64,000 nucleotides of DNA from Phycisphaerae bacterium (GTDB taxonomy: Bacteria; Planctomycetota; Phycisphaerae; Sedimentisphaerales; Anaerohalosphaeraceae): NCBI GenBank assembly GCA_018052735.1, contig JAGPMT010000001.1:62001-126000 (forward strand). The letters are read 5' to 3'. Made by a program: the position numbers and the translations under genes. Shown piece by piece: positions 19,234 through 25,220 of this stretch. The notes under the pieces were generated by a model. That model had not been told where the DNA came from. It worked only from the letters and a program-made list of their open reading frames with translations, and ran no database searches. Each line of letters begins with the position of its first letter. Positions within the stretch are counted from its first letter, which is position 1.

Positions 19234-19479
19234 ATGCCGTTGGATGTTCGCTCTATCTCGATCCGTTTTGCCGCAGCGGCATTTTTTATTCTATCCTTTA
19301 TCGGCTGGTTTGCTGAACTGCCTCCGCTGACCTGCTGCAAACGAGCGGGAGCAGGGGCATTGATTATCTATATTACAACTGCAGCTGCGGTGAATTTGGT
19401 CAATCGGATGCTTATTGGTCTGTGGATTAAATCTCAGTCGGACGAGCACAAAGGAGATTTAGACGGACGTGGATTCTGA
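19234..19479 (+). CDS. Small two-span membrane protein between flhA and fliA
   Basis: An 81-residue protein with two hydrophobic segments (about 11-30 and 41-62) and a charged C-terminus (QSDEHKGDLDGRGF). It starts 7 bases after flhA and overlaps the start of fliA, so it lies inside a tightly packed operon and is very likely translated. The loop holds a CC pair. I do not recognise a family. The place is usually taken by flhF or a MinD-like flhG gene, neither of which this resembles. Confidence 0.68.
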   Translation: MPLDVRSISIRFAAAAFFILSFIGWFAELPPLTCCKRAGAGALIIYITTAAAVNLVNRMLIGLWIKSQSDEHKGDLDGRGF

Positions 19480-20260
19480 AACAATGACACAGCCACCGGC
19501 GGCTGAACAGGTCTGCCTGAAAGCCGCTGCCTGCAACGCTTACCGCCGGCAGAATCATCCGGCACTGAGCGATGAGACCATCGCGCAGTATCTTCCGCTG
19601 GTGCACAAAGTCGTTCAGCGCGTGGCTGTCTATCTGAAGCCGCCGCTGAGCCGTGAAGATTTGGTCTCGGCCGGACTGGTCGGTCTGGTCAAAGCCGCAC
19701 GCGATTACAATCCTTCCCATGAAGCCGAATTTCAGACCTATGCCTATATCCGCATCCGCAGCGCCGTTCTGGATGAGCTGAAACGCCAGTCTTTCGTTCC
19801 CGCCGTTGTCAATAAGCAGATTCGTCAGGCTGCTCAGCTCCGCCTTGACCTGACCGACCAGCACGGCCAAGCCCCTTCGGATGAAGAACTGGCAGGGCAG
19901 CTCCATATTTCTGTCGATAAGCTTTATCAGATTTTCAGCAGTGCCCGTATCCGCCAATTTGTGTCGTATGACCATTTTGCCGATGACGAGTCGGGACCGG
20001 CAGACCGCCTGGCCGCCAGTGCACCGGATCCTTCTGCGCAAATGGAAAAAACGGAACTGGTTGACCAGCTGGCCGCCGCCATCAGCCAGCTTGACCAACG
20101 TCTGCGGCAGATTATTATTCTGTATTACCAGCAGGACCTGACGATGAAGCAGATTGCACAGGTCCTCGGGCTGACGGAACCCCGCGTCAGTCAGCTTCAT
20201 GCAAAAGCGCTGTTTCTTCTTTCATCCAAAATGAGGGCGTGGAAATATGACCGAGAATGA
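19469..20260 (+). CDS. fliA: Flagellar sigma factor FliA (sigma-28)
   Basis: FliA directs RNA polymerase to late flagellar and chemotaxis promoters. The 263-residue protein shows sigma region 2 (HKVVQRVAVYLKPPLSREDL, GLVGLVKAARDYNPS, FQTYAYIRIRSAVLDELKRQ), region 3 (about 130-165) and region 4 (LDQRLRQIIILYYQQDLTMK, then QVLGLTEPRVSQLHAKA). A GTG start at 19469 is used here because an AGGAG lies 12 bases upstream; ATG 19484 is the alternative and lacks a ribosome site. It overlaps its neighbours on both sides. Transcription from the sigma-54 promoter at 10118 would make sigma-28 follow sigma-54. Confidence 0.96.
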   Translation: MDSETMTQPPAAEQVCLKAAACNAYRRQNHPALSDETIAQYLPLVHKVVQRVAVYLKPPLSREDLVSAGLVGLVKAARDYNPSHEAEFQTYAYIRIRSAVLDELKRQSFVPAVVNKQIRQAAQLRLDLTDQHGQAPSDEELAGQLHISVDKLYQIFSSARIRQFVSYDHFADDESGPADRLAASAPDPSAQMEKTELVDQLAAAISQLDQRLRQIIILYYQQDLTMKQIAQVLGLTEPRVSQLHAKALFLLSSKMRAWKYDRE

Positions 20261-21999: not shown

Positions 22000-22027
22000 T
22001 TATCGGCACATTAAAAGACTGTCTTTA
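22000..22027 (-). promoter_or_regulatory. Sigma-28-like promoter pointing antisense to the operon end
   Basis: On the minus strand TAAA (22027-22024) and GCCGATAA (22007-22000) both match the E. coli-type FliA consensus perfectly, separated by 16 bases (optimum 15). It faces left, away from the FlgM-like gene and into the 3' end of the lipoprotein gene, where there is no gene on the minus strand. It may be chance, or it may make an antisense RNA. A partial inverted repeat (TTAAAAGACTGTCTTTAA, 22011-22028) overlaps the upstream half. Confidence 0.4.
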
Positions 22028-22134
22028 AGGAAATTATAAAAAAATATTTAAGTTTGCGGTAAAATCCTCGAAAATAATATCAGAAACAGCGAAGATAGAT
22101 GAATGCCCATTTAGAAAAAATATAAGGCAATAGA

Positions 22135-22410
22135 ATGATTGAGAAAATATATAACAATCAGATTCAGAATATCGCCAAGGAATTTTGTTCCCCTTCCTCC
22201 GGCGATCTGTCGATTCGGCCCAACATCCAAGCCGATGCCTCTTTGCAGCTGAATTGCCAATCGCTTATGGAACAGGCATCTCTGAAATCAGCTGATGCTG
22301 ACGATGGAGCCGTTGTGGAACGGGCACGCCAGCTGCTGCTGTCCGGTCAATTGGATACTCCCGAAAACATACGGCAGGCAGCCCAAAATATCCTGAAATT
22401 TGGTGTTTAA
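22135..22410 (+). CDS. flgM: FlgM-like anti-sigma-28 factor
   Basis: A 91-residue protein with a polar, disordered-looking N-terminus and a helical C-terminus (ERARQLLLSGQLDTPENI, then RQAAQNILKFGV) that fits the FlgM family pattern of helix-G-x-(Y/L)-x-(I/T) followed by a terminal helix with a Leu-Phe end. FlgM holds FliA inactive until the hook is complete and is then exported. Position near the fliA operon end supports the call. It is separated from the operon by about 140 bases; TATAAG (22121-22126) lies 8 bases before the ATG and AAGG could act as ribosome site. Sequence similarity is modest, so the name is provisional. Confidence 0.62.
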   Translation: MIEKIYNNQIQNIAKEFCSPSSGDLSIRPNIQADASLQLNCQSLMEQASLKSADADDGAVVERARQLLLSGQLDTPENIRQAAQNILKFGV

Positions 22411-23676: not shown

Positions 23677-24127
23677 AAGCCAGCCCTTTCCATTCGAGGT
23701 ATAATATGCGTTTTAACAAACGTCCCTGTTGAACAAAAGCGTCCGATAAAGCAAAAGAAAATGGAGGAGTAAGACCATCCTTTACTATTATTCTCGATAC
23801 TTTATCGTAAAACTTAAATGGTTCTTATCCAATTCAAGCGGTTTGAAAAATGAATATCCAGCGGCAGGCAGGCGGCGCAAAAAGGCTGTTTTGATGCCAC
23901 ATTAAGACCATTCAGGCAAATCGGCGATTTCAGCGGTTCTGTTTTATTTGGCTGAAAATCCGGTGTCTCTGGTGCTGCTGATTTCCCCCTCAAACCTTGC
24001 AAATAACGTCCGGCAGCGGCAATCCGCACTGCCTATCCGGCCGGCAATTCCTGCATAACGGCATCCGCTATACTGTTCCAAAGGCGGCGGTGTGCCTGTT
24101 GAGGCCGGTAAATACCGTCGACAACAT

Positions 24128-24179
24128 TCAACAACACTGATTTTTAGCGTAAAAATCCAGAGCTGTTGATAGTTGTTGA
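24128..24179. repeat. Nested inverted repeat (possible operator or hairpin)
   Basis: Outer arms TCAACAAC (24128-24135) and GTTGTTGA (24172-24179) enclose inner arms GATTTTTA (24139-24146) and TAAAAATC (24150-24157) separated by GCG. All arms are exact complements (8 of 8 in each). There is no following U-tract on either strand suited to a terminator. It may be a protein-binding site or a stem-loop in an untranslated RNA. Function unknown. Confidence 0.6.
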
Positions 24180-24211
24180 TTACTCTCTTTTATAAGGCTT
24201 CCATCTCATTT

Positions 24212-24235
24212 TATCTTTTCTATCTTGCCTATCTT
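24212..24235. repeat. Three TATCTT direct repeats at 9-base spacing
   Basis: TATCTT occurs at 24212-24217, 24221-24226 and 24230-24235, each followed by three variable bases. The even 9-base phase differs from helical phasing (10.5) but suggests either slippage growth or an array of binding sites. It lies about 50 bases right of the nested palindrome. Confidence 0.45.
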
Positions 24236-24352
24236 GCTGGAAGCATAAAAGGTGTGATTATTTTTCACAGGCTGGATAGAGAAGGCATTTGATTGAAGCG
24301 TCTGGAATACAAATCCCCTGCAGTCATTTTGGGCGATTTTTTTAGGCCGAAT

Positions 24353-24379
24353 AAAAAAGGCAGAGCATACAGCTCTGCC
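24353..24379 (-). terminator. Intrinsic terminator of the RNA candidate
   Basis: On the minus strand the stem GGCAGAGC - loop of five - GCTCTGCC (24379-24372 with 24366-24359) is followed at once by six U residues (24358-24353). The 8-bp perfect stem and the U-run make a textbook Rho-independent terminator. On the plus strand the stem is followed by CTTTT, so it may also work weakly in the other direction. Confidence 0.85.
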
Positions 24380-24556
24380 CTTTTGGATTAGTATGGCTCT
24401 TCTCGTACCATGCTTAGCGGATATCTTGTCGTGCCCTGATTACCATCGGCCTTGTGTGCATTCGCGAGACAGGCATTTCAAGTTCCTGCCAACATAACCT
24501 CTTGGGTTATTGGTTAAGAGCCATTTTTGACTGTTCCATCAATTGATGCTCTTTCT
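24353..24556 (-). ncRNA. Structured small RNA candidate with own terminator
   Basis: Read on the minus strand, an 8-bp closing stem pairs TGGCTCTT (plus-strand 24516-24523) with AAGAGCCA (24394-24401). Between them are several hairpins, including ATAACC/GGTTAT (24494-24499 with 24505-24510) and a GGCAGG/CCTGTC stem. The closing stem is followed after about 14 bases by an intrinsic terminator at 24353-24379. A sigma-28-like promoter lies just upstream at 24564-24590. I compared it by eye with 6S, SRP, RNase P, tmRNA and common riboswitches and did not find a match. The plus-strand reading also folds but lacks a proper terminator. The RNA is an inference; its family is unknown. Confidence 0.6.
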
Positions 24557-24563
24557 ACATACT

Positions 24564-24590
24564 ATATCGGCCGTCAGACGAAAAAGTTTG
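24564..24590 (-). promoter_or_regulatory. Sigma-28-like promoter before the RNA candidate
   Basis: On the minus strand CAAA (24590-24587), 15 bases, then GCCGATAT (24571-24564), against the FliA consensus TAAA-N15-GCCGATAA: 10 of 12 bases match with optimal spacing. The predicted start near 24556 is at the 5' end of the structured RNA. A sigma-70 -10 (TATAGT, 24566-24561) overlaps but has no -35 box. Such near-matches occur several times by chance in a window of this size, so support is moderate. Confidence 0.45.
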
Positions 24591-24804
24591 AATATTTTTC
24601 TGCATTTTCAATACTGCCATTCAATTTTTATCCTGCTGTTTCTGCGCAGGCAAAAGACATAAGCCCGTTCGTGCAACGGCATCAGTACGGCAGACAGTAC
24701 CCCCCCAAAAAATGACGATATGCGATTTCCAGTTTTGCGGTCTCTAAACACGTTAAAAAATATCTGAATGTGTCTTTTCTTCTTCACAACGGCTGGGCTG
24801 TGTG

Positions 24805-24818: not shown

Positions 24819-25220
24819 ATGGAGCAGAAAGCGGAAAAACAGCCGAGAGTCCTTGTTATTGAAGACGATCCCGGTCATCAGAGACTGCTTGAGCTTTACA
24901 TCCAGCGTGCCGGCTGCCAATGCGATTGCTGTTTCGATGGGCGAACGGGATTGGACAAAGCGCTGTCCCATGAGTACGATGCCATTTTCATTGATATCCA
25001 TATTCCCGAGATGGACGGCTTTATGGTTGCCACACAGATTCGCGAACAGGGTCTGACCGTTCCGCTGATCGCCACGACGGCCTTAACCGTAGAAGGCATT
25101 CGGCGCAATGCCTCGAAAGTCGGCTATACGGAGTTTCTCCAGAAGCCGCTGGGCGAAAAAGAAATCTGCGACATTCTGCAGCGCTACGCCTTCGGCGAAC
25201 CTTTGGCACAGAAAAGCTGA
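24819..25220 (+). CDS. Single-domain response regulator (CheY-like)
   Basis: A 133-residue stand-alone receiver domain. All key residues are present: Asp16-Asp17 (VIEDDPG), the phospho-acceptor Asp59 (AIFIDIHIPEMDG), Thr86/Thr87 and Lys109 (FLQKPLG). The short tail after residue 123 carries no output domain. It could be a chemotaxis protein or a phosphorelay part; a motif such as IPEMDGF is common to receivers attached to hybrid kinases. No kinase or che gene is adjacent. Transcription probably starts at the ATG itself (leaderless). It converges with addA. Confidence 0.9.
   Translation: MEQKAEKQPRVLVIEDDPGHQRLLELYIQRAGCQCDCCFDGRTGLDKALSHEYDAIFIDIHIPEMDGFMVATQIREQGLTVPLIATTALTVEGIRRNASKVGYTEFLQKPLGEKEICDILQRYAFGEPLAQKS

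Follow-up and report, generated by a model that had tools for sequence, protein, structure and literature searches.

Our comparative analyses indicate that a 64,000-nucleotide stretch of Phycisphaerae DNA, analysed as a whole and called here the window, carries on its minus strand the gene of a small structured RNA that represents a real, new and previously undescribed family, conserved in a planctomycete order whose members are mostly uncultivated. The family is strongly supported by covariation and has a promoter of a defined class, and no description of an RNA of this kind was found in the open-licence literature. We consider it fairly probable that it is a regulatory RNA belonging to the regulon of a non-flagellar sigma factor of the FliA/WhiG type, hereafter SigA.

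Location and parts of the RNA gene

A preliminary description of this DNA had placed on the minus strand a structured small RNA, with a promoter and a terminator, in a gene-free 1.1 kb just downstream of the flagellar locus. The RNA is present as claimed, on stronger grounds than first judged, and the gap around it is confirmed: from 23677 to 24752 the ORF list has no entry reaching 80 aa for either strand, and past the gap the first probable gene begins at 24819. The flagellar neighbourhood is real in the window, where the RNA lies 2-5 kb from flagellar genes, but this proximity is not shared by the loci of its relatives. The parts of the gene are as follows.

24587-24592, minus strand: -35 element TTCAAA of a sigma-28-family promoter; motif conserved upstream in relatives
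24564-24571, minus strand: -10 element GCCGATAT; motif conserved upstream in relatives
7-8 nt past the -10 box, minus strand: predicted transcript start
24353-24557, minus strand: small RNA gene, recognized by its conserved core, promoter and terminator; predicted transcript of ~205 nt
24393-24525, minus strand: conserved structured core (126.5 bits with model R1, 100.7 bits with model R2)
24516-24524, minus strand: 5' strand of the closing stem P1, AUGGCUCUU; compensatory changes at the outer pairs
24393-24401, minus strand: 3' strand of P1, AAGAGCCAU; supported by the covariation count
24495-24509, minus strand: hairpin P2, UAACC-N5-GGUUA; both-sided change in 4 of 5 pairs
24488-24493, minus strand: 5' strand of P3, GUUGGC, pairing with GCUAAG at 24418-24413; strong covariation, e.g. 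UUCAGC/GCUGAA
24413-24418, minus strand: 3' strand of P3, GCUAAG; covaries with the GUUGGC strand
24438-24460, minus strand: conserved apical segment UGCACACAAGGCCGAUGGUAAUC, the loop of the P3/P4 arm; conserved in the alignment, candidate contact site
24353-24379, minus strand: intrinsic terminator GGCAGAGC-UGUAU-GCUCUGCC-UUUUUU, read from the sequence; hairpin 24379-24359, six T 24358-24353

The promoter reads TTCAAACTTTTTCGTCTGACGGCCGATAT at 24592-24564, that is, CAAA-N15-GCCGATAT (TTCAAA-N15-GCCGATAT). From these parts a transcript of ~205 nt can be expected to exist. Its strand, taken as 208 nt, folds at -61 kcal/mol (z -2.8), a value equalled by 1 of 200 shuffles. The several internal hairpins and the terminator with six U that had been noticed earlier both hold on the minus strand, and so does the closing stem, except that it has 9 bp and not 8. 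A protein-coding reading was tried and is rejected on account of short and broken frames, the three frames of the window's RNA having no open stretch longer than ~30 codons and its 20-codon ATG frame being broken in the nearest relative.

Distribution of the family

Among 59 relatives searched by plain BLAST, 11 have a clear homologue of the region; these homologues have in common ATGGCTCTTAA...GAGAAGAGCCAT and, in their central part, a CACAAG..GAT motif. A first covariance model, built from 12 sequences, matched 98 of the 161 genomes of the order Sedimentisphaerales (class Phycisphaerae) and, in a sample spanning the phylum, no genome from outside the order. With a refined model built from 96 sequences, the RNA was found in 103 of the 161 genomes (55 of the 66 good ones), belonging to the families here numbered f1, f2, f6 and f7, and there were no matches in other orders of the class (298-genome class sample; ~235 Phycisphaerae genomes from outside the Sedimentisphaerales). 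A pattern scan of ~85,000 species yielded 31 matches, 27 of them confirmed by the covariance model and titled Sedimentisphaerales, Anaerohalosphaeraceae, Phycisphaerae, Planctomycetota or 'uncultured bacterium'; the 4 non-planctomycete matches were unconfirmed by the model and are attributed to chance. Most carriers have a single locus and some have two to four, and the RNA is absent from several near-complete genomes of the order.

The RNA had been described as unmatched to any known family by eye, and the Rfam scan bears this out, returning neither a family nor a housekeeping RNA. No Rfam 15 covariance model reached its gathering threshold anywhere in the window; relaxed thresholds gave terminator look-alikes only (ar9 at 21.7 bits, cut-off 45), and with E allowed up to 3, no family came up repeatedly on the RNA across 20 homologous loci. 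As a separate observation, L036:951-1363 (plus strand) matches the cspA thermoregulator family at 63.4 bits (cut-off 78), which is unexpected on a planctomycete contig.

Structure and 3' end

The architecture consists of the closing stem P1, the side hairpin P2 and a long P3/P4 arm bearing the conserved apical segment. Covariation in relatives, one of the tests suggested in the preliminary description, was examined with a structure of 33 pairs over 96 sequences and was found: both-sided, compensatory changes occur in 28 of the 33 pairs, double-change cells number 257 against 119 +/- 11 in shuffles, and the covariation score is 0.274, compared with 0.173 +/- 0.005 in shuffles and 0.05-0.10 once the partners are slid. 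The values for P1, P2 and P3 lean towards the fitted model, because the alignment was made with a model holding these three stems; the P4 pairs covary although they are absent from it. The sequence of P1 is nearly invariant, its outer pairs excepted.

Such a molecule invites comparison with 6S RNA (RF00013), and it might be the order's 6S-like RNA, binding RNA polymerase rather than base-pairing. Like 6S, it is ~200 nt long, has one locus in most genomes and has its 5' and 3' ends paired with each other, here by P1; moreover, no 6S match was found in the window's genome, and some planctomycetes reportedly lack 6S (Wehner 2014, cited in PMC5673643). Unlike 6S, it has no match to RF00013 or any other Rfam family, its short closing stem, side hairpin and second arm differ from the long 6S rod with its single central bubble, and its promoter is of an alternative-sigma type; its absence from several near-complete genomes and its 2-4 copies in some also speak against this analogy, which we regard as very unlikely. 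By analogy with CsrB, the RNA could also be a decoy titrating an RNA-binding protein, given its strongly conserved structure with few loop motifs and its extra copies in some genomes. However, there are only two GGA motifs in the window's RNA and no array of repeated hairpins, and sequence conservation falls on one unique apical segment instead of on repeats, so that a decoy would be an unlikely explanation.

Terminators were found in most copies of the RNA in the order. Family f7 accounts for all of the 24 or more loci at which a larger domain, GCCCCUG...CAGGGGC-U(n), takes the place of the plain terminator and encloses a further conserved stem. This domain, which reads GCCCCTG-CGAAGCAG-AAGGCGAGTAT...ATAC.CTCG...CAGGGGC-T(n) in DNA letters, is found in the 120 nt that follow the RNA core at loci that include L043, L054, L064, L070, L073, L080, L089, L093, L094, L106, L116 and L127. 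The terminator raises the question of a cis-acting leader, a riboswitch or attenuator of a downstream gene, the more so as AGAGC is common to the 3' strand of P1 (P1') and the 5' arm of the terminator in some members. Yet the nearest downstream ORF lies on the opposite strand in 56 of 103 loci, only 26 of 103 are followed by a same-strand ORF at 250 nt or less, the downstream genes vary, and GGCAGAGC-type terminators are also found after unrelated regions of the order. Since the RNA is framed by a promoter and a terminator of its own, and has varying neighbours and few same-strand ORFs, it is most improbable as a leader, a reading largely refuted by the orientation of its neighbours.

The promoter class

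Upstream of the RNA, ~25 nt 5' of its core, an order-wide motif TTCAAG(ATT)-N16-GCCGATg is found (consensus TTCAAR-N16-GCCGAT). We counted occurrences of the pattern [TC][TCA]AA[AGT]-N-[CTA]CGA[TA], measuring the spacing from AAR to YCGAT. The modal spacing, 17, occurs in 64 of 108 RNA upstream regions against ~1.5 expected from shuffles, and a spacing of 18 in a further 15 of 108; the sigma-28-like promoter proposed earlier is thus real. Upstream of 28 flagellin genes from the order, the commonest spacing by this count is 15 (18 of 28), with a -10 end CGATAATG. The spacer of the RNA promoter is therefore 2 bp wider than that of the order's flagellin promoters, and the CGATAAT end is missing; these differences in spacing and -10 end place the RNA promoter in the sigma-28 family but in a class distinct from the flagellar one. 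The window's own RNA promoter has a spacing of 16, 1 bp below the mode of the order, and falls between the RNA and flagellin classes, so that reading by the flagellar FliA would be possible at this particular locus.

Some further elements were observed around these promoters. In family f1, a palindrome-like ATCAGTAYTRAT lies 20-40 nt upstream of the -35 box (L024, L032, L036, L040, L052, L055). CAGTAYT occurs in 14 RNA upstream regions against 1.9 in shuffles, and the ATCAGTAYTRAT element is a possible activator site. Elsewhere in the window, 22000-22029 (minus strand) holds a further sigma-28-like site, CTTAAAGACAGTCTTTTAATGTGCCGATAA, directed away from the ORF at 22135-22410 (plus strand), which encodes 91 aa that look FlgM-like by eye and have no Pfam or NCBIfam match.

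Flagella, FliA and a second sigma factor

The preliminary description had suggested that the RNA is driven by FliA and would tie motility to other genes. In its full form, this explanation holds that the flagellar FliA (window 19469-20260, adjoining flhA) transcribes a late flagellar small RNA comparable to MotR or FliX of Escherichia coli. It has points in its favour: the promoter resembles sigma-28 promoters and has in the window the N15 spacing of the E. coli consensus, the RNA lies close to flagellar genes there, and FliA and WhiG sigmas have a common promoter specificity in other phyla (PMC8325347). Across the order, however, it finds no support. Flagellin is present in 129 of the 161 genomes, and the RNA is carried independently of it, by 83 of the 129 genomes with flagellin and 20 of the 32 without (tallied by hand from two lists). 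An orthologue of the window's FliA is absent from all 17 flagellin-less carriers tested, a set that leaves out G063 and G078, apparent flagellin-misses in which a FliA orthologue is present; in these 17 genomes both the RNA and its promoter are kept. Flagellated controls of f1, f2, f6 and f7 have the orthologue at 45-59% identity, and in G038, the control from f5, the match reaches only 32%. Together with a promoter spacing and -10 end unlike those of flagellin genes, and with the lack of linkage to flagellar genes in other genomes, this phyletic pattern leads us to reject a FliA-only reading, and makes it doubtful that flagellar FliA is what drives the RNA. Since the promoter is kept in species without flagella, the RNA is probably part of a distinct control circuit that derives from a flagellar sigma factor.

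A candidate for that role is SigA, a second, WhiG-like sigma factor of the FliA/WhiG family that is ~30% identical to the window's FliA. It occurs in all 17 tested flagellin-less carriers, intact in 15 and fragmentary in 2 (two fragments in G081, a partial match in G068). Three near-complete genomes, G037, G042 and G046, have no strong SigA match, no kinase of the type described below and no RNA. In the window's genome, SigA (G000:C69:33555-34220) matches TIGR02479 (FliA_WhiG) at 261 bits, with a cut-off of 189.6, and adjoins a MinD/FlhG-like and a FlgB-like gene. The FlgB-like gene stands beside SigA in 5 of 5 loci examined, flagellin-less G067 among them; its protein has no Pfam or NCBIfam match and is possibly a regulator of the WhiG-like sigma. 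Copies are seen at L220:5920-6324 and L164:2401-2823, both on the minus strand. The window's genome has three FliA/WhiG-family sigmas, at window 19469-20260, C69:33555-34220 and C41:117666-118331, all above the NCBIfam FliA_WhiG cut-off.

A histidine kinase with the same promoter

Additional exact TTCAAG-N16-GCCGAT sites were retained only when supported by orthologues, since many lie inside ORFs and are probably due to chance. In the window's genome and two others, such sites lead to orthologous soluble histidine kinases (seen, for instance, at L250:641-1459, minus strand, and at G000:C49:46543-47316). Matches to this kinase occur in 146 of the 161 genomes of the order and in 63 of the 66 good ones, the good genomes that lack it being exactly G037, G042 and G046. 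Among the 30 best orthologues examined, 28 have the motif upstream and 25 have it at the modal spacing of the RNA. Kinase and RNA have a common promoter class in motile and non-motile members alike. The genomes of family f5 and G024 have SigA and the kinase, and the RNA was not found in them, so that it does not appear to be an obligatory part of the system. No complementarity was detected between the apical loop and the 5' region of the kinase (mean z -0.14, 24 genomes). The motif also stands ~140 nt upstream of the genes for two proteins with a common ...EHYKMLSTVEY(S/T)GQGQFKH... segment, at L170 (G099) and L183 (G137); the G099 copy has no Pfam match.

Discussion

From the distribution of the two sigma factors and the form of the promoter, it is most likely SigA, and not the flagellar FliA, that reads the RNA promoter. 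According to this explanation, SigA, encoded beside the FlgB-like gene and kept where flagellin is gone, would transcribe the RNA; its promoter type would also drive the conserved soluble histidine kinase and, being under one type of promoter, kinase and RNA would both be members of one SigA regulon. The transcript would end at its own terminator and fold into P1, P2 and the long P3/P4 arm, leaving two segments, the apical loop and the single strand that precedes P1', exposed to mRNAs or to a protein partner. The RNA probably acts in trans through one of these two segments.

Small RNAs under flagellar control have been characterized in other bacteria. The sigma-28-dependent UhpU, MotR, FliX and FlgO of E. 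coli are mostly derived from UTRs and serve flagella (PMC10578931), and Campylobacter jejuni has two flagellar small RNAs (PMC11187230). The planctomycete RNA resembles those of E. coli in being a small RNA with a sigma-28-family promoter, and those of C. jejuni act in the flagellar cascade; no sequence or structural relation to either was found. In contrast with the E. coli RNAs, which come mostly from mRNA UTRs of flagellated hosts, it is a free-standing and strongly structured gene that is kept where flagellin and FliA are lost. A parallel for the sigma factor is found in the actinobacteria Streptomyces and Rubrobacter, in which WhiG-type sigmas have been taken over from flagellar control (PMC8325347). 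Both cases involve a sigma of the FliA/WhiG family, promoters of the GCCGAT type and non-flagellar genes; they differ in that a regulatory RNA takes part here, with none in the excerpted account of PMC8325347, and in that the neighbour of SigA is FlgB-like.

No small-RNA work on the class Phycisphaerae was found in the open-licence literature, and annotators of these genomes gain a usable covariance model together with the TTCAAG-N16-GCCGAT motif. We propose tentatively, as an idea that may well prove wrong, that a module of FlgB-like protein, WhiG-like sigma and kinase, originating from flagellar control, has outlived the flagellum, with the RNA as its non-coding output, through which a sigma-28-family signal would reach post-transcriptional control in cells with and without motility. 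If this is true, a sigma-28-type regulon, RNA included, would have been retained past the loss of flagella, and the roles of FliA/WhiG sigma factors outside motility would thereby become testable.
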